In this document: piece by piece, positions 2,338 through 8,479 of the stretch
How the letters are laid out: each line of letters begins with the position of its first letter
How positions within the stretch are numbered: position 1 is the first letter of the stretch
Origin: an uncultured Phycisphaerales bacterium
GTDB lineage: Bacteria; Planctomycetota; Phycisphaerae; Phycisphaerales; UBA1924
Length of the DNA: 8,501 bases
Direction of reading: 5' to 3'
Assembly (NCBI GenBank): GCA_937871415.1
Contig: CALMQD010000609.1
Coordinates: 1 to 8,501 of the forward strand
Notes under the pieces: model-generated
Told to the model about the DNA's origin: nothing
Databases searched by the model: none
The model's input: the letters and a program-made list of their open reading frames with translations, nothing else
Made by a program: the position numbers and the translations under genes

Positions 2338-5259
2338 ATGTCGATGCGAGAACGCCCCATGACCCCCCGCTCATCCCGCCCGATCGAACCCCGTTCCGCC
2401 CCGACCAACGCCCCGCGCCGGCTCCGCGCATACCTCCGCTCCCGCCGCGGCGTCACCAGCGTCCTCGCCATGATGTTCATGGTCATGTTCGGCTCCCTCG
2501 CCGTCGCCATGGCCGTCGCCAGCCAGGGCAACCTCCGAACCGCCAACACCCACCTCCACGTCGTCCGCGCCATGGGCGCCGCCGAAACCGGCATGGCCAT
2601 CGCCGAGAAGACCCTCACCGACGCCGTCGCCCGCTTCCAGGTCACCAAGGGCGTCGTCGATGCCGGCTTCGGCTGGCGCCTCTGGACCGGTCAGACCATC
2701 AGCGGCGACGGCACCGTCAACATCCGCCCCTCCGCCGACGGCCGGCCCGACGAAGTCACCACCCGCGGCGTCGCCGAGGCCGTCCTCAACGCCCACCTCC
2801 ACGACAACAACCGCCTCTCCGTCGCGGGCTTCCCCGACACCGCCGACATCTTCACGCCCAGCGGCGACATCGACGACGCCGAGTACAAAACCGAGGCGTG
2901 GGTCCGCACCGCGCTCATCGCGATCGACGGCGACGCCGCCGCCTCCGGCGCCCACCCCGCCGCCTACCAGATCACCTACGCCCCGCTCGCCAGCGGCACC
3001 GACGTCCGCGTCATCGTCACCGGCTACAGCTCCATCGGCGCCCAGGGCTCCGACTACGTCTACGGCCGCTCCGCCTCCGGCGACGTCCAGCGCCCCATCC
3101 TCCGCCAGATCCAGCAGGACTTCCGCATCGCCAAGCGCCCGGGCCACGCCATCCTCGCCCCCAGCCGCATCATGATCGGCAAGAACGTCCACGTCACCGG
3201 CAACCTCGGCGCGATCTACACCGACGTCAACGAGGAGAACGGCCACCCCATCACGATCAAGTCCGACTTCTACGGCATCAACGCCACGCTCAACGCCAAA
3301 CTCGACGACCTCTTCGAGGCCCTCGCCGCCCACGACGTCGACGGCGACAACCGCCTCCGCGTCGGACACGCCATCGAGGGCGCCGCCATCCCCAGCAACA
3401 GCACCGACTACGACGGCAACGGCGCCGCCGACAACGCCTTCACCGACCGCACCGGCGACGGCTACGTCGACGAGTTCGACGTGTTCCTCTCCCAGTACGA
3501 CACCAACGGCGACGGCCGCGTCGTCCTCTCCAGCGCGCTCACCGCCGGCACCCCCGCCGCCGGACAGGCCCCCGAGTTCACCGCCGACGACGACCTCGCC
3601 CTCCTCATCGACTCCTCCAACCCCGACCGAAACCGCAACGGCATCTCCGGATACGTCGACGCCAACCGCAACGGCCGCTGGGACTCCGGTGAGGCCATCA
3701 ACGACATCGACCCCAACACCGGCGCCTTCCGCGACCGCGTCCTCGGCTGGCGCGACGGCGTCATCGACCGCCGCGACCAGTACAACAAGGTCCGCGGCCG
3801 CCTCGTCTACCGCACCAGCGAGCAGTCCTGGGCCACCGCCCACGACGACTACAAGAGCAAGGTCCAGGGCCCCATCATCCCCGACCGGGGCCAGAGCGCC
3901 CAGACCTTCGGCGCCGACACCGATGCGCTCCCCGAGGTCTCCGCCGCCACCTTCGTCGATTCCCAGAACCCGCTCAAGGACGCCGCCGACGGCCAGACCT
4001 TCGACCAGCAGGTCGCCACCCAGCTCGGCATCTCCACCACCGCCCTCGCCACCTACACCGAGGCCAGCACCTCCGCCTCCTCGCCGCGATTCTGGCGCGC
4101 CGACCTCGACGACGCCTACGTCTACTCCCGCACCGGCCGCCACCTCTACGAGCAGATGCCCTTCAACTCGCCCTCCTTCTCCGACTGGTACTACCGCCCG
4201 CGCTACGAGAACATGACCTTCAAGAACGTCCAGATCCCCCGCGGCACCAACGCCCTCTTCATCAACTGCACCTTCGTCGGCGTCACCTACGTCCGCACCT
4301 ACACCGACAACACCCACGCCCAGTGGTCCAACTACGGCAAACTCGTCTGGAGCAACACCGCCAACAAGCCCGTCGCCGCCACCGACCCCCTCGACAAGTC
4401 CGACTTCCCGCGCTACACCACCGGCAACGTTATCGACGGCCCCGCCAACTACGACTCCTTCCCCGACCCGCCCGTCATCGACGGCGCGACCAAGACCGGC
4501 GCCGCACGAAACACCAAGCTCTACTCCAACAACATCCGCTTCCACGACTGCCTCTTCGTCGGCACCGTCGTGAGCGACACGCCCCAGGCCTACACCCACG
4601 TCCGCAACAAACTCCAGTTCACCGGCAAGACCCGCTTCACCGACGAGCACCCCGAACAGCCCGACAACCCCTCCCTCAACCCCGACGAGGACGAACGCGA
4701 CGAGATCGCCAAGTCCAGCCTCATGGTCCCCCAGTACTCCGTCGACATCGGCGCCTTCAACAGCCCCACCGACACCTACTCCGGCGCCACCGGCACCCAG
4801 AACGTCAACCTCCAGGGAACCATCGTCGCCGGGCTCATGGACATCCGCGGCAACACCACCATCGACGGCGCGCTCCTCCTCACCTTCGCACCCGTCGCCG
4901 GCCAGGGACCGCTCCAGCAGAACGGACAGGCCGTCGGCTCTACCGCCGGTTTCAACTCCACCTTCGGCTACTTCGGCCCCCAGGACGGCGACGGCGAATC
5001 CCTCGACCCGCTCACCCTTCCCATCGTCAACGGCCAGCGCATCGCCGGCTGGGACCTCGACGGCGACGGCATCGCCGACCTCGACCCGTCCCACACCCCG
5101 ACCTCCGCCCAGATCGCCGCCGGCGCCACCGCCGTCCCCTTCTACGGATACGGGCGCGTCGAACTGAACTGGAACCCCAACCGCCCCATGCCCGACGGCA
5201 TCCTGCTCCCGCTCTCCGTCGTGCCGCTGTCCGAAACGTACCGGGAGGGCCGCCGATGA
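2338..5259 (+). CDS. Very large GspK/PilX-like minor pseudopilin with EF-hand-like loops and a probable beta-helix region
   Basis: The 973-residue protein has a basic N-terminal tail ending in SRRG (35-38), then VTSVLAMMFMVMFGSLAVAM (39-58), a hydrophobic helix that continues to about 61. This resembles a prepilin or PilX N-terminus, with cleavage expected after Gly38. Position +5 of the mature chain is Leu, not Glu; lack of Glu5 is a known feature of GspK, the tip pseudopilin. Residues 62-270 look like a globular exported part. EF-hand or dockerin-like loops cluster at 333-344 (DVDGDN), 357-381, 388-396 (DTNGDG), 430-441 and 441-452 (DANRNGRWDSGE, a good EF loop), with another at 906-914 (DLDGDG). 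At about 623-650, 730-765 and 820-850, short hydrophobic strands separated by turns (MTFKNVQI, ALFINCTFVG, IRFHDCLFVG) look like a right-handed beta-helix. Classical GspK is about 320 residues, so this is roughly three times larger. The stop overlaps the next start. ATG 2338 is preferred; TTG 2335 is possible. GspK/PilX is inferred from the N-terminus and context. Confidence 0.68.
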   Translation: MSMRERPMTPRSSRPIEPRSAPTNAPRRLRAYLRSRRGVTSVLAMMFMVMFGSLAVAMAVASQGNLRTANTHLHVVRAMGAAETGMAIAEKTLTDAVARFQVTKGVVDAGFGWRLWTGQTISGDGTVNIRPSADGRPDEVTTRGVAEAVLNAHLHDNNRLSVAGFPDTADIFTPSGDIDDAEYKTEAWVRTALIAIDGDAAASGAHPAAYQITYAPLASGTDVRVIVTGYSSIGAQGSDYVYGRSASGDVQRPILRQIQQDFRIAKRPGHAILAPSRIMIGKNVHVTGNLGAIYTDVNEENGHPITIKSDFYGINATLNAKLDDLFEALAAHDVDGDNRLRVGHAIEGAAIPSNSTDYDGNGAADNAFTDRTGDGYVDEFDVFLSQYDTNGDGRVVLSSALTAGTPAAGQAPEFTADDDLALLIDSSNPDRNRNGISGYVDANRNGRWDSGEAINDIDPNTGAFRDRVLGWRDGVIDRRDQYNKVRGRLVYRTSEQSWATAHDDYKSKVQGPIIPDRGQSAQTFGADTDALPEVSAATFVDSQNPLKDAADGQTFDQQVATQLGISTTALATYTEASTSASSPRFWRADLDDAYVYSRTGRHLYEQMPFNSPSFSDWYYRPRYENMTFKNVQIPRGTNALFINCTFVGVTYVRTYTDNTHAQWSNYGKLVWSNTANKPVAATDPLDKSDFPRYTTGNVIDGPANYDSFPDPPVIDGATKTGAARNTKLYSNNIRFHDCLFVGTVVSDTPQAYTHVRNKLQFTGKTRFTDEHPEQPDNPSLNPDEDERDEIAKSSLMVPQYSVDIGAFNSPTDTYSGATGTQNVNLQGTIVAGLMDIRGNTTIDGALLLTFAPVAGQGPLQQNGQAVGSTAGFNSTFGYFGPQDGDGESLDPLTLPIVNGQRIAGWDLDGDGIADLDPSHTPTSAQIAAGATAVPFYGYGRVELNWNPNRPMPDGILLPLSVVPLSETYREGRR
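3334..3693 (+). other. Region encoding a cluster of EF-hand-like Asp/Asn loops
   Basis: Residues 333-452 of the GspK-like protein contain five or six loops of the pattern DxDxDG or DxNxNG. The clearest are DTNGDG (388-393) and DANRNGRWDSGE (441-452), which has acidic or amide ligands at 1, 3, 5 and Glu at 12. Such loops bind Ca2+ in dockerins, EF-hands and thrombospondin type 3 repeats. Helices flanking each loop are not obvious, so free-standing calcium loops are as likely as true EF-hands. Confidence 0.65.
5243..5249 (+). promoter_or_regulatory. Ribosome-binding site inside the 3' end of the GspK-like gene
   Basis: GGGAGGG lies 6 bases before ATG 5256. Together with the ATGA overlap of stop and start it indicates that the GspJ-like gene is translated in coupling with the GspK-like gene. 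Confidence 0.7.
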
Positions 5260-5864
5260 ACCACCGAACCCGCACCCACGCACGCCGCGCCTTCTCGCTG
5301 GTCGAGATGCTCATCGCGCTGACCATCAGCGCGACGCTCCTCACCGCCACCCTCACCGCCTTCGACGCCTCCTGGCGAGCCTACAAGGACACCACCGAGT
5401 CCGCGTCCACCCACGTCGTCTCGCGCATCGTCATGCACCGCATCCTCGCGATGGTGCGCACCGGCACCGAGTTCGGCCCCTACCCCGACGACGTCCTCGA
5501 CGCCTCGCAGAACCCCCTCACCTCCACCTCCATCGAGTTCGTCTCCGAGGCCGACCGCCTCGCCGGCAACAACCGCATCACGCGCATCGAACGCCGCGCC
5601 GTCGCCAACACCACCGACCAGTTCGAACTCTGGTACGTCCTCATCAACCGCGCCGACGGCTCCACCATCGAAGAGCGCCCGCTCCTGGCCAACGTCCGCG
5701 AGGCCCTCTTCATCCTCGAGTACGAGCCCGGCCCGCGCCTTGTCCGCGCCACCATCGACCTCTCCATCCGTCCCAACGACGAGGACGACCTCCGCGTCGG
5801 CGGCACCGACCGCACCCCGATGATCCGCCTGGTCGCCTCCGCCGAGCCGCGTCAGCTCCAGTAA
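5256..5864 (+). CDS. Minor pseudopilin with type IV prepilin leader, GspJ/PilW-like
   Basis: The 202-residue protein has a short basic leader, MNHRTRTHARRA, followed by FSLVEMLIALTISATLLTAT. Cleavage is predicted between Ala12 and Phe13, with Glu at +5 (residue 17) and a hydrophobic helix at about 13-36. As in the GspI-like protein, the residue before cleavage is Ala rather than Gly. The exported domain (about 40-202) has alternating strands such as FELWYVLI (123-130) and ALFILEYEPG (150-159), which fits the GspJ/PilW fold, and about 200 residues is usual for GspJ. ATG 5256 overlaps the preceding TGA in ATGA and has GGGAGGG upstream. In classical systems GspI, GspJ and GspK form the quasi-helical tip complex; here the order is I-like, K-like, J-like. 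The GspJ label rests on length, leader and context; the prepilin class is firm. Confidence 0.82.
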   Translation: MNHRTRTHARRAFSLVEMLIALTISATLLTATLTAFDASWRAYKDTTESASTHVVSRIVMHRILAMVRTGTEFGPYPDDVLDASQNPLTSTSIEFVSEADRLAGNNRITRIERRAVANTTDQFELWYVLINRADGSTIEERPLLANVREALFILEYEPGPRLVRATIDLSIRPNDEDDLRVGGTDRTPMIRLVASAEPRQLQ

Positions 5865-5900
5865 TCCCACGCCGTCTTGGCCGCTCCGCCTTGGACTTTT

Positions 5901-5950
5901 CCTCTCTCCCGCTTGCGGGAGAGATGTCATGCGAAGCATGACAGAGAGGG
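5901..5950. repeat. Type A branched palindrome, copy 1
   Basis: Two hairpins lie side by side inside an outer stem. TCTCTCCCGC (5903-5912) pairs with GCGGGAGAGA (5915-5924) around TT. TGTCATGC (5925-5932) pairs with GCATGACA (5936-5943) around GAA. CCTCTC (5901-5906) can pair with GAGAGG (5944-5949), which would give a three-way junction with a shortened first hairpin. It is the first structure after the pseudopilin operon and could act at the 3' end of its mRNA, but no T-run follows, so it is not a standard intrinsic terminator. Confidence 0.8.
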
Positions 5951-5973
5951 TGGCCTTTGCCTTGGGCGTCACC

Positions 5974-6021
5974 GGCCTTTGGTGGCACCGGCCTTTGGTG
6001 GCACCGGCCTTTGGTGGCACC
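5974..6021. repeat. Three perfect tandem copies of a 16-base unit
   Basis: GGCCTTTGGTGGCACC occurs three times without change at 5974-5989, 5990-6005 and 6006-6021. A degenerate copy with inserted bases precedes it (5952-5973). The last unit runs straight into a type B hairpin. Identical copies indicate recent expansion or correction. No protein-like signal is present, although open frames cross the region because the unit lacks stop codons in some frames. Confidence 0.9.
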
Positions 6022-6038
6022 GGTCTCCAGACCGGTGC
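6017..6038. repeat. Type B hairpin, copy 1
   Basis: GCACCGGTCT (6017-6026) is followed by CC and its exact reverse complement AGACCGGTGC (6029-6038). This is a 10-base perfect stem with a two-base gap. The left arm begins inside the last 16-base tandem unit. An identical copy lies at 6125-6146. Confidence 0.88.
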
Positions 6039-6056
6039 GCCTTGTTGTCTTGGGTG

Positions 6057-6077
6057 GCACAGGCGTCCCGCCTGTGC
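6057..6077. repeat. Type B hairpin, variant copy 2 with changed but still paired arms
   Basis: GCACAGGCG (6057-6065) pairs perfectly with CGCCTGTGC (6069-6077) around TCC. It is preceded by GGTG, as the other copies are, and keeps the GCAC/GTGC base. The inner stem differs from copies 1 and 3 (AGGCG instead of CGGTCT) on both arms, so pairing is kept while sequence is not. Confidence 0.85.
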
Positions 6078-6098
6078 GTCTTCTGCCTTCGGATCTTT

Positions 6099-6146
6099 GC
6101 CTTTGGTGGCACCGGCCTTTGGTGGCACCGGTCTCCAGACCGGTGC
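6099..6146. repeat. Second 16-base tandem array ending in type B hairpin copy 3
   Basis: A 15-base unit at 6099-6113 (lacking the first G) and a full unit GGCCTTTGGTGGCACC at 6114-6129 lead into GCACCGGTCT (6125-6134), CC, and AGACCGGTGC (6137-6146). The hairpin is identical to copy 1. Unit number differs between arrays (three versus two), consistent with slippage or recombination. Confidence 0.88.
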
Positions 6147-6157
6147 ATGTATCTCGC

Positions 6158-6212
6158 TCTCTCCCGCCCGAAGGAGCGGGAGAGATGTCCGAGTCTTCGA
6201 GGACAGAGAGGG
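6158..6212. repeat. Type A branched palindrome, copy 2 (divergent)
   Basis: TCTCTCCCGC (6158-6167) pairs with GCGGGAGAGA (6176-6185), the same arms as copy 1, but the loop is eight bases (CCGAAGGA) instead of TT. The second hairpin has TGTCC (6186-6190) paired with GGACA (6201-6205); its inner sequence is unrelated to the ATGC-GAA-GCAT of copies 1 and 3. GAGAGGG follows at 6206-6212. The overall layout is preserved. Confidence 0.75.
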
Positions 6213-6226
6213 CGCCTTCTGCCTCT

Positions 6227-6252
6227 GGTGTCACCGCTCTCCGGGCCGGCGC
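6227..6252. repeat. Degenerate type B hairpin, copy 4
   Basis: GGTGTCACCGCTCTCC followed by GGGCCGGCGC aligns with the type B copies base for base over most of its length, but several stem pairs are lost. It follows type A copy 2 through a linker (GCGCCTTCTGCCTCT) like the one after copy 1. It is best read as a decayed member of the family. Confidence 0.55.
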
Positions 6253-6284
6253 GCCATCCGCCCTGCCGCGCTGCCTTCGCCTTT

Positions 6285-6331
6285 CCTCTCTCCCTCTGGG
6301 AGAGATGTCATGCGAAGCATGACAGAGAGGG
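6285..6331. repeat. Type A branched palindrome, copy 3
   Basis: TCTCTCCC (6287-6294) pairs with GGGAGAGA (6298-6305) around TCT; it lacks the terminal GC pairs of copy 1. TGTCATGC (6306-6313) pairs with GCATGACA (6317-6324) around GAA, identical to copy 1. CCTCTC (6285-6290) can pair with GAGAGG (6325-6330). From here to the next gene start (6332-6426) I see nothing more than C-rich sequence. Confidence 0.8.
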
Positions 6332-6426
6332 CGCTTTGCCTCTGCGTTCCAGCCCTGAACTTCCCGCACCCCGGCCGGTCTTCCAACCCCACAACCCCGC
6401 CCTCTCCCGGCCTCTACCATCCCCCC

Positions 6427-6600
6427 ATGTCTGCTCACCCCAAAAAGCACACACACCGCCCGCACCGCGACAAAGACGCCCACCCCGAGCACACCTCCAT
6501 CCAGAGCCGCAACACCATCCGCACCGCGGCCGCCGGCGTCCTCGTCTTCGCCCTGCTCCTCACCGTCCTCGGCCTCGTCTACGTCTTCTGGATTCTCTGA
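6427..6600 (+). CDS. Small His-rich protein with one C-terminal membrane span, unknown function
   Basis: The 57-residue protein has a hydrophilic N-terminal half with six histidines in the first 22 residues (MSAHPKKHTHRPHRDKDAHPEH). A hydrophobic segment from about Ala34 to the end (AAAGVLVFALLLTVLGLVYV and on) ends only a few residues past the helix. This is the layout of a tail-anchored or small single-span inner-membrane protein with its N-terminus probably in the cytoplasm. The codons end almost always in C (GTC CTC GTC TTC GCC), as in the upstream genes, which argues that it is real. I do not recognise a family. ATG 6427 is preceded by CCCCCC with no ribosome-binding site; the frame is open further upstream, but only through the repeat cluster. 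It ends 26 bases before the tRNA gene. Confidence 0.62.
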   Translation: MSAHPKKHTHRPHRDKDAHPEHTSIQSRNTIRTAAAGVLVFALLLTVLGLVYVFWIL

Positions 6601-6707: not shown

Positions 6708-7457
6708 TCATTCAAACAGCGGTGACTCTTGCCGACCGGGGTCCGTACGCACTGCCGCGAGCTCTTGCGTCATGATCTCGTCTGCCCACCGATCTCGAAC
6801 TCGCTGGGTTCCGCGAGAGAGTCGCTCGTCGTGCCTTGATTGCGACCCCAGTAGAAACAAGACGTGCGATGTCGTGAACATCGTCACGCGACTTACGCCA
6901 GGCGCTCGCGCGAGTCGTGTCGCTAGCGATGCGGAAAACTCCGATCGCTCTTTGCGGGGAAAGTGCTGATACACCAGAACCGACGACCCTTGTGCGGTTG
7001 TTCGCTCGACTTCGGGCCAATACAGATACTTGTTCGATCCCCTGCTGCCGGCGCGGACTGAACCAACTTCGAGCCCGTTGTCGGGGTCGAAAAAGACGAG
7101 ATCGCGATCACGCATCTGTTGGTGAGCATTCGAGAAGAATGTCTCGCGGCTAGGTCGCGTATCGCCAAGCAATGCCGAACAGAAAATCGCGTCTCCCAAC
7201 AAACTGGAGCGCTCGATCAGGCCAACAGCCCGATCCTCCGGTCCGTTCATCCACTTGCCAATCGCGTCAAACAGATCGGGATCGCGATGCCGGAACGACT
7301 TGGGTTGCTTGAGATACCCTAGTTTGGCCCCGTCGCTGCGCCCATCCGCGGGCGTCAGCATCCAGCACACGCCCAGCGTGAGTTCATCGCCCGAGAGCGC
7401 CCGCAGCAGGCCGTACTTGCGGTAGTCGTTCACGTCGCCGAAATACTGGTCCTTCAT
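6708..7457 (-). CDS. Uncharacterised protein with N-terminal KDQYFGDVNDYRKYGLLR and a DPDNG motif
   Basis: The 249-residue soluble protein starts MKDQYFGDVNDYRKYGLLR. I have the impression that this N-terminus recurs in unannotated bacterial proteins, but I cannot name a domain. Later features are LGVCWMLTPADG (about 28-39), LVFFDPDNGLEVG (about 119-131), a strand at about 154-160 (SSVLVYQ) and TMFTTSHVLFLLG (about 191-203). A strand ending in DPDNG resembles motif IV (DPPY-like) of Rossmann-fold methyltransferases, and the N-terminal layout loosely recalls RlmJ, so a methyltransferase-like fold is a guess. The start is the ATG at 7457; reading on to 7508 would add 17 residues that overlap the trxB end. 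It begins 23 bases after the trxB stop on the same strand, so it may share its transcript, and it ends 8 bases from the tRNA. Codons are less C/G-ending than in its neighbours, especially after residue 60, suggesting acquisition. Confidence 0.8.
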   Translation of the reverse strand: MKDQYFGDVNDYRKYGLLRALSGDELTLGVCWMLTPADGRSDGAKLGYLKQPKSFRHRDPDLFDAIGKWMNGPEDRAVGLIERSSLLGDAIFCSALLGDTRPSRETFFSNAHQQMRDRDLVFFDPDNGLEVGSVRAGSRGSNKYLYWPEVERTTAQGSSVLVYQHFPRKERSEFSASLATRLARAPGVSRVTMFTTSHVLFLLGSQSRHDERLSRGTQRVRDRWADEIMTQELAAVRTDPGRQESPLFE

Positions 7458-7480
7458 GCCCCGACCTCGGCGCACCCGCC

Positions 7481-8479
7481 TTAGTGCACCCCCGCTGCCG
7501 CCAGCCACCGCTCCGCGTCCAGCGCCGCGCGGCAGCCCATCCCCGCCGCCGTCACCGCCTGCCGGTACACGCTGTCCGCCACGTCCCCCGCCGCGAACAC
7601 GCCCGGGATGTTCGTGTAACTGTTCTGTCCCTTGAGCGCCACGTACCCCGACTCATCAAACTCCAGCCCCGAGCCCTTGAGGAACTTCGTCGCCGGCGTG
7701 TGCCCGATCGCGACGAACAGCCCCTTGACGTTGAGCGTCGAGATCTCGCGCGTCCGGGTGTCTTCCAGCAGCACGCCCTCGATGTGCGTGTCGCCCAGCA
7801 CGTCCACCACGACCTTGTTCCACAGCACCCGCGCGTTCGGGCGGCTCATGAACCGCTCCTGCATCACCTTGCTCGCACGCAGCGCGTCCCGCCGGTGGAT
7901 GATGTACACCTCCGACCCGAACTTCGTCAGGTACGTCGCCTCTTCCAGCGCCGTGTCCCCGCCGCCCACCACCGCCAGCGGCTGATTCCGGAACGCCGGC
8001 AGCGCGCCGTCGCACACCGCGCACGCGCTCACCCCGCCGCCGCTCGTCGCCAGACGCAGCTCGTTCGGCAGGTTCAGCCAGTTCGCCGTCGCGCCCGTCG
8101 CGATGATCACCGCGTGCGCGTGCACCACGTTCCCCGACGACGTGTGCAGCGCGTGCGCCCTCGTCGCCGGCGTCTTTGACCACTCGCACCGCACGATGTC
8201 TTCCATGAACACCTGCGTCCCGAACCGCTCCGCCTGGTGCTGGAACTTCGCCATCATCTCCGGGCCCATGATCCCGTCCGGGAACCCCGGGTAGTTCTCC
8301 ACCTCCGTCGTCAGCATCAACTGCCCCCCCGGCAGCACCGGCCCCGGGTCCTGCTTCGGCACACCGATGTACACGATCGGGTCCAGCCGCGCACGCGCGG
8401 CGTAAATCGCCGCCGTCCACCCCGCCGGCCCCGACCCGATGATCACCAGTTTGTGCGCCTGACCGTGCCCTGAACTCAT
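7481..8479 (-). CDS. trxB: Thioredoxin reductase (NADPH, FAD)
   Basis: The 332-residue protein transfers electrons from NADPH through FAD to a redox-active disulfide and on to thioredoxin in the cytoplasm. The FAD-binding GSGPAG is at 15-20, with GGQLMLTTEVENYPGFPDGI at 51-70, the usual TrxB stretch. IIATGA is at 125-130. The active-site pair is CAVC, Cys153 and Cys156, inside GVSACAVCDG. The NADPH domain has GGGDTALEEATYL (172-184) and HRRDALRAS (195-203), whose arginines bind the 2'-phosphate. The C-terminal FAD motif is FAAGDV (295-300). Length and motif order are normal for the low-molecular-weight bacterial enzyme. AGAGGG a few bases before the ATG on the minus strand supports the start. 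The uncharacterised gene follows 23 bases downstream. Many codons end in G (GCG, CTG, GTG), unlike the C-ending plus-strand genes. No thioredoxin gene is in view. Confidence 0.97.
   Translation of the reverse strand: MSSGHGQAHKLVIIGSGPAGWTAAIYAARARLDPIVYIGVPKQDPGPVLPGGQLMLTTEVENYPGFPDGIMGPEMMAKFQHQAERFGTQVFMEDIVRCEWSKTPATRAHALHTSSGNVVHAHAVIIATGATANWLNLPNELRLATSGGGVSACAVCDGALPAFRNQPLAVVGGGDTALEEATYLTKFGSEVYIIHRRDALRASKVMQERFMSRPNARVLWNKVVVDVLGDTHIEGVLLEDTRTREISTLNVKGLFVAIGHTPATKFLKGSGLEFDESGYVALKGQNSYTNIPGVFAAGDVADSVYRQAVTAAGMGCRAALDAERWLAAAGVH

Follow-up and report, generated by a model that had tools for sequence, protein, structure and literature searches.

The closest described counterparts of the repeats analysed here are the intrastrand triplex repeats of ITxF class II, known as the triplex motif (TM or TM_ECO) and earlier as PIT elements. 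In the available text of the 2015 report, this single-hairpin motif folds as a triplex in vitro, as followed by CD and NMR, and is built of a pyrimidine arm, a purine arm and, as third strand, a purine mirror that makes G.G:C, A.A:T and T.A:T triplets; it is dispersed in many copies, and in all of these features it resembles our repeats (PMC4666352). As far as that text goes, an in vivo footprint detected no stable triplex, inverted pairs of the motif without a nuclease gene were reported in E. coli, and the way in which the copies spread was left open. The authors found no mobility genes near the E. coli copies, whereas here a nuclease gene often lies between inverted copies (PMC4666352, available text). 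The published consensus, CCCTCNCCC...GGGNGAGGG...GGGNGAGGG, is the single-hairpin type that we observed beside many DUF559 genes.

The REP and REPIN sequences with their RAYT genes (GTAG superfamily) share with our repeats the short palindromes, the inverted pairs, the solo copies and the single dedicated gene flanked by two copies (PMC3733652, available text). RAYT is an HUH tyrosine transposase, whereas the partner found here is predicted to be a Vsr-like protein of the PD-(D/E)XK type, and the copies in our window (the whole 8,501-nucleotide stretch of DNA that was analysed) carry a third-strand mirror tail. The GTAG end of the RAYT-associated REPs was absent from the three window copies on either strand, and a RAYT gene flanked by the repeat was found at none of 30 Y1_Tnp loci. 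The CGTC-tagged REPs are likewise palindromes, stated to be without a dedicated transposase, and the window turn hairpin starts with TGTC, a variant tag of that family; however, those REPs have an unpaired CGTC or TGTC tag and a CCA tail, whereas in the window copies TGTC is paired with GACA, there is no CCA tail and a pyrimidine/purine hairpin precedes (PMC3733652, available text).

In the ITxF class II definition, as given in the text available (PMC4666352), three arms of 6–15 nt form C-G-G, T-A-A or T-A-T triplets and both loops are 1–6 nt long (0–10 in an earlier search). All three window copies have such arms (TCTCTCCC / GGGAGAGA / AGAGAGGG), but their turn is 18–19 nt long and itself a hairpin, and the first loop of copy 2 has 8 nt. 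Since the loop length lies outside the ITxF range and the copies fall under neither REP definition, we class them among the intrastrand triplex repeats, as a variant with a hairpin turn. Single-hairpin triplex repeats are known; the hairpin-turn variant and the nuclease partner are new here. Vsr-like homing nucleases such as I-Bth0305I share the predicted fold of DUF559, and we know of no inverted triplex repeats flanking I-Bth0305I. A link between DUF559 nucleases and triplex repeats was not found in the openly licensed literature searched (bioRxiv lay outside its scope).

Three copies in one intergenic stretch

The window corresponds to contig C609 in a MAG of 2.7 Mb and 77% completeness. 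The initial annotation had described three copies of a two-hairpin layout in it, with first-hairpin arms kept around a varying loop (TT, eight bases, TCT). Both observations were borne out, copy 2 beginning at 6156 instead of 6158. The copies share one intergenic stretch, bordered on one side by a gene (5256-5864) that has a pilin-like N-terminal methylation motif and on the other by a small ORF, after which comes tRNA-Val:

5865..6426, no strand: intergenic stretch with all three copies
5901..5950, plus strand: copy 1, with pyrimidine arm 5903-5912, loop TT 5913-5914 and purine arm 5915-5924
5925-5943, plus strand: copy 1 turn hairpin, TGTCATGC-GAA-GCATGAC(A)
5943-5950, plus strand: copy 1 mirror tail, AGAGAGGG
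6156..6212, plus strand: copy 2, with pyrimidine arm 6158-6167, loop CCGAAGGA 6168-6175 and purine arm 6176-6185
6186-6204, plus strand: copy 2 turn, TGTCCGAGTCTTCGAGGAC, a short stem and then GA opposite GA
6205-6212, plus strand: copy 2 mirror tail, AGAGAGGG
6285..6331, plus strand: copy 3, with pyrimidine arm 6287-6294, loop TCT 6295-6297 and purine arm 6298-6305
6306-6323, plus strand: copy 3 turn hairpin, the same as in copy 1, followed by the mirror tail at 6324-6331

The three copies are real, lie where listed and are not due to chance. A scan for the triplex code (G over G; over A, either A or T) returned these three elements only in the whole window, and when positions 5865-6427, which hold them, were dinucleotide-shuffled, 499 of 500 shuffles contained no element and the remaining one contained a single element. 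The plus-strand DNA folds of copies 1, 2 and 3 were 5.6, 2.3 and 4.5 s.d. below dinucleotide shuffles.

The copies had further been described as closed by an outer CTCTC/GAGAG stem, and this part of the description needed correction. Single-strand DNA folds placed two hairpins side by side; the outer stem was missing from four of the six minimum-energy DNA folds (copies 1 and 3, both strands), and outer closure in copy 2 amounted to three end pairs only. In RNA folds the stem does form in copy 3, on both strands. The outer stem and the first hairpin compete for one 5' arm, and by inspection the stem fails where a mirror relation holds, for example in the subtype GGGCGGAGA/AGAGGCGGG. In a comparison of 160 candidates, false hairpins among them, complementarity in any register reached at least 0.85 in 12%, against 59% for mirror identity, and the outer Watson-Crick stem was rejected as a conserved feature. 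It is better read as a mirror, the 3' tail AGAGAGGG against the purine arm GGGAGAGA of the first hairpin. From its sequence, this layout is predicted to form an intrastrand purine triplex whose turn is the second hairpin.

A G-quadruplex was judged unlikely for the window arms because each element has two GGG runs, and among Rfam families tRNA alone matched in the window. A second family of palindromes, of GGTGGCACCGGTCTCCAGACCGGTGC and GGTGGCACAGGCGTCCCGCCTGTGC types, is interspersed among the triplex repeats at 6013-6038, 6053-6077 and 6121-6146; it has 15 copies in the genome, two of them within 80 bases of a triplex copy on contig C438. Ahead of copies of this second family, 16-base units (GCCTTTGGTGGCACCG) are repeated at 5975-6022 and 6099-6130. 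An ORF on the minus strand at 6708-7508 (266 residues) had no Pfam match, and PADLOC gave nothing for a shorter version of it in that frame.

Turn stems and mirror tails across the family

Exact patterns located two further strong copies in the same genome. Their turn stems, ACGC/GCGT on contig C254 and GGGC/GCCC on C438, are clean double changes. A covariance model of the five copies was searched in 41 genomes (the genome itself and others of the same genus, family and order) and detected the element in 12 of them, its own included, and in none of the other 29. The element is thus a dispersed repeat, as had been proposed, and not confined to this locus. The largest number of matches in one genome was 34 (G014), where subtypes differ in arms and turn and keep the layout. 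Several copies in that genome (L049-L058) have a similar stretch beyond the tail (GTCCGGGGGGAAATCGCCAAAA...CAAAGG type), and some of its subtypes may be longer units.

For the analysis of the turn hairpin, elements were picked by their arms and tail only, across the loci collected by then. This gave 167 distinct turns of at least 12 bases, 117 of them with a stem of at least 4 (79 distinct stems), and a C-GNA-G motif was present in 101 of the 167, compared with 23.5 in shuffles. GNA triloops suit DNA rather than RNA, and DNA hairpins of the GCGAAGC type are stable. In 53 distinct C-GNA-G cores the four pairs outward from the triloop were Watson-Crick in 96, 87, 79 and 77% of cases, as against 52, 32, 30 and 28% when the 3' arms of the same cores were re-dealt; several of the exceptions were A or G opposite G or A. 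The second-hairpin stems covary strongly. The statement of the initial annotation that arms change yet stay paired is valid for the family, including the C254 and C438 copies, and fails in part for the inner part of copy 2, where TGTCC/GGACA is paired and GA stands opposite GA inside it.

The 3' tail was the reverse, and not the reverse complement, of the purine arm of the first hairpin in the flanking elements listed, with arm/tail pairs such as GGGGAGG/GGAGGGG, GGGCGGAGA/AGAGGCGGG, GGGGGAGC/TGAGGGGG and GGGAGAGGG/GGGTGAGGG; in the window copies the pair is GGGAGAGA/AGAGAGGG. Judged by base order, this mirror arrangement corresponds to that of an intrastrand purine-motif triplex in which the third strand runs antiparallel to the duplex purine strand. 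The rule was formed on the first element sets; loci fetched later brought arm types that obey it with T over A, such as AGAGGGG/GGGGTGT and AAGGGGGA/AGGGGGTT.

A pooled test combined discovery and later loci, leaving out hairpins that ended less than 60 bases from the domain match, and comprised 165 purine-arm hairpins in the flanks of 97 of 137 DUF559 loci. When G positions alone fixed the register, 75 of the 165 hairpins aligned, and over 126 arm A positions the tail had A in 70, T in 52, G in 2 and C in 2, that is, A or T in 122. T over C:G is stable in purine triplexes; the rule over arm C was weak, since the tail there had T 7, C 6, G 3 and A 2. Under the full code 66 of the 165 hairpins fitted as a mirror and 28 as a direct repeat. 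The arm GGGAGAGGG is its own mirror and accounts for 23 fits of each kind; it is uninformative, and the telling contrast is therefore 43 mirror fits to 5 direct repeats. The expectation for the full code was 14.8 with arms permuted (maximum 23 of 200) and 6.6 with letters shuffled within arms (maximum 12 of 200). When one element was kept per distinct arm, 22 of 37 obeyed the code, compared with 3.06 (s.d. 1.64, maximum 10 of 1000) when tails were permuted; the remaining 15 arms may reflect extracted hairpins that are not elements, degenerate elements or a rule that is not universal. With pairs covarying in the turn stems and tails covarying as mirrors, the structure itself appears to be selected, in line with the initial suggestion.

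DUF559 genes between inverted repeats

In relatives of the window genome, four DUF559 matches (G008, G014, G018 and G024) lay about 45-105 bases from matches to the element. A model-free test then took the 300 or 350 bases on either side of the domain match and asked whether one side held an inverted repeat of the other. In close relatives inverted flanks were present in 16 of 17 standalone DUF559 genes and in none of nine other DUF559 hits (seven in giant ORFs, two partial). At least 80 named loci were collected, mostly from Planctomycetota and Alphaproteobacteria, with a few from Chloroflexi and one each from a cyanobacterium, a myxococcote and Pedobacter. Among the matches listed, 63 of 75 had inverted flanks (five of 80 were dropped at contig edges) as against 1 of 67 farther-out controls, the 12 failures including the Pedobacter locus. 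A second set of 40 loci, made up of 26 new ones from a Planctomycetota sample and 14 of 15 plasmid loci taken from 44 records (L258, a fused gene, was left out), gave 32 with inverted flanks and 8 without.

Triplex-code elements faced the gene on both sides in 74, on one side in 36 and on neither in 23 of 133 DUF559 loci (the 137 minus four with short flanks). At control positions 700-960 bases out the corresponding numbers were 0, 7 and 98 of 105, and none of seven giant-ORF DUF559 loci had such an element. Elements facing away from the gene occurred on both sides of 20 loci and on one side of 37; with 57 of 133 loci affected, the flanks are therefore crowded, and at many nuclease loci two or more repeats lie on a side.

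Repeat and nuclease were also associated across genomes, and their sequences co-vary. Since the genomes are related, the values that follow overstate independence: a Mantel r of 0.41 (0 of 999) between nuclease and repeat sequences; p=0.0097 for model matches and standalone DUF559 genes in the 41 genomes (8 with both, 4 with the repeat only, 6 with the gene only, 23 with neither); and an odds ratio of 13 (p=1e-11, uncorrected for kinship) in 294 Planctomycetota genomes. In the last set the single-hairpin pattern was present in 47 genomes, with up to 345 copies in one (G122), and DUF559 (E<=1e-20) in 42. Both occurred in 24 and neither in 229, so that 23 pattern-positive genomes had no strong DUF559 match and 18 DUF559 genomes no exact pattern.

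Searches for DUF559 genes gave none in the window's own genome (MAG 77% complete; the second search ran without a positive control) or in its one genus relative, and the partner of the three window copies is accordingly inferred from relatives. G003, a genome of the same family, encodes a DUF559 protein that has an identical counterpart in 'Phycisphaerae bacterium HBSAPP03'. A search for DUF559 relatives in viral contigs gave eight pattern matches, none of which was confirmed.

DUF559 is predicted to be a Vsr-like PD-(D/E)XK nuclease. Its AlphaFold2 model (pLDDT 90.8) matched, in Foldseek, 3HRL (E 4e-7), the catalytic domain of the homing nuclease I-Bth0305I (3R3P, E 8e-5) and Vsr (1VSR, E 0.03); 3HRL is the solved structure of a gonococcal member of the DUF559 family. 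A profile match of 1e-5 between YcjD and Vsr is given in the available text of PMC1189080, and that of PMC12907096 states that the SOS response of Caulobacter without ScmA needs a DUF559 protein. Matches of the DUF559 proteins tested to the NCBIfam model for DUF559, NF007294, stayed under the cut-off of that model, and a PADLOC match of DUF559 to DpdF (E 4e-7) covered 51 residues, the model having 1078 positions.

The E. coli gene ycjD is annotated as DUF559. In strain KE47 a pattern search detected, at its 3' end and facing the gene, a copy of the published triplex motif that is imperfect and that the strict scan misses; the K-12 copy is degenerate, and the 5' (upstream) end has a different palindrome. 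A match was obtained in 3365 of 5426 E. coli genomes. The E. coli control genome gave no PF04480 match, though an MG1655 record carries ycjD; which strain served as control, or the first-look filter, could account for this. The Neisseria gonorrhoeae homologue (L315) has clean GGGAGAGAG/GAGAGAGGG elements downstream, facing away from the gene, and, by eye, an imperfect element upstream that faces it. The triplex-type repeats near this gonococcal gene have nearly the arm of the window copies, in a different phylum.

In the plasmid collection, DUF559 genes lay between operon partners (sufB and sufC; paaD and paaZ; a pair of transhydrogenase genes) and within gene clusters for 4-hydroxyphenylacetate (hpa). 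Between sufB and sufC the unit was present in S. parapaucimobilis (L255), G327 and G333, intact in all three and with both repeats facing the gene. In G329 and G330 the matched gene ends were separated by 52 and 75 bases without a repeat. By inspection, G326, G328, G331 and G334 had other inserts; G335 had a larger insert, in which 57 residues (39%) gave a partial DUF559-like match, and in G332 there was no DUF559 in the stretch examined. Among the occupied and short sites compared, no clean junctions were found, and no target-site duplication was noticed on reading the sufB-sufC junctions. The pattern fits insertion and also a generally tolerant site. In sphingomonads (L255, L259-L277) this junction carries differing inserts and is an apparent insertion hot spot. 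For the window copies, no syntenic counterpart that could serve as an empty site was present in G001, G005 or G006, where the downstream genes differ. E. coli was discarded as an empty-site test: two strains without ycjD have genes of another operon beside fabI (PMC12817139, available text), so there is no clean comparison.

Candidate mover and rival explanations

We favour, with moderate confidence, the explanation that the repeats are copies of one dispersed signal in DNA that, once single-stranded, is predicted to adopt an intramolecular purine triplex, and that they are likely spread by the predicted Vsr-like (DUF559) nuclease, because most standalone genes tested, in other genomes, adjoin the repeats or sit between them. 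The layout, the mirror and pair covariation, the inverted flanking and the co-occurrence across genomes are directly supported, and one site with and without the unit (sufB-sufC) and the predicted nuclease fold are also in hand. Mobilisation by DUF559 we infer from these observations. The repeat consists, in order, of pyrimidine arm, loop, purine arm, a turn formed by the second hairpin (mostly with a GNA triloop) and a purine tail, which would lie antiparallel in the major groove of the purine arm through G.G:C, A.A:T or T.A:T triplets. A full unit is repeat, nuclease gene and inverted repeat, with the tails toward the gene, and the window copies would be non-autonomous solo ends. The fold may form when the strand becomes single during replication or repair; the nuclease would then bind and nick it, and repair or strand transfer would give a new copy elsewhere.

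A different role for the same protein, which we regard as rather unlikely though deserving attention, is that a homing-type DUF559 nuclease cuts inverted pairs of triplex repeats and is copied between them, the repeats being landing sites that spread by other means. The second-best fold match, to a homing nuclease catalytic domain, is in keeping with this, as are the gene-less inverted pairs reported in E. coli (PMC4666352, available text) and the many loci with more than one repeat per side; the association of repeat and nuclease across genomes and the tracking of nuclease sequence by repeat type speak against it, though homing could give the same. That hairpins stabilise or terminate mRNA and are selected site by site is improbable: the window copies are intergenic and their RNA folds are stable too, but an RNA hairpin would not account for a mirror tail in which T is allowed at arm A, there was no Rfam match besides tRNA, and occurrence among relatives is patchy.

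The initial annotation had proposed REP-like elements moved by RAYT, and we now consider this very improbable. The repeats are palindromic, intergenic and dispersed, the window genome has four Y1_Tnp matches, and at one RAYT locus (L118) a weak model match (22.4 bits) lies within about 150 bases of the gene match. However, no triplex-code element was found within 260 bases of the gene at any of 30 RAYT loci (33 minus two at contig edges and one partial match), and the covariance model gave four weak matches in the 33, of 14.5-22.4 bits. By inspection, inverted repeats of other sequence were present at 22 of 31 RAYT loci, so the flank test works, and the best-matching RAYT of the window genome (L001) is flanked by an unrelated palindrome and then GTAG. 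Y1_Tnp genes occurred in 22 of 29 genomes without the repeat and in 10 of 12 with it (p=0.70). Least credible of all is a compositional accident in which G-rich tails next to G-rich hairpins mimic a mirror. Arms and tails are indeed G-rich, which is why permuted arms still match in 14.8 of 165, but the 66 hairpins and 22 distinct arms that fit exceed every permutation, and the shuffles of the intergenic stretch were almost all devoid of elements.

Returning to spread by DUF559, a wider proposal, to which we give somewhat less than even weight, is that these are minimal mobile elements with triplex ends and a lone Vsr-like nuclease of ~100 residues that recognises the single-stranded triplex fold. 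They would be a PD-(D/E)XK counterpart of REP/RAYT in several phyla, and E. coli ycjD with its triplex motifs would probably belong to them. The nuclease between inverted copies is a specific, testable candidate mover, with ycjD of E. coli K-12 and the solved relative 3HRL at hand. If the proposal is true, a known class of orphan repeats would gain its missing mover, the widespread 'domain of unknown function' family DUF559 would gain a function, and this would be the first element family, as far as we know, with ends recognised as DNA triplexes.
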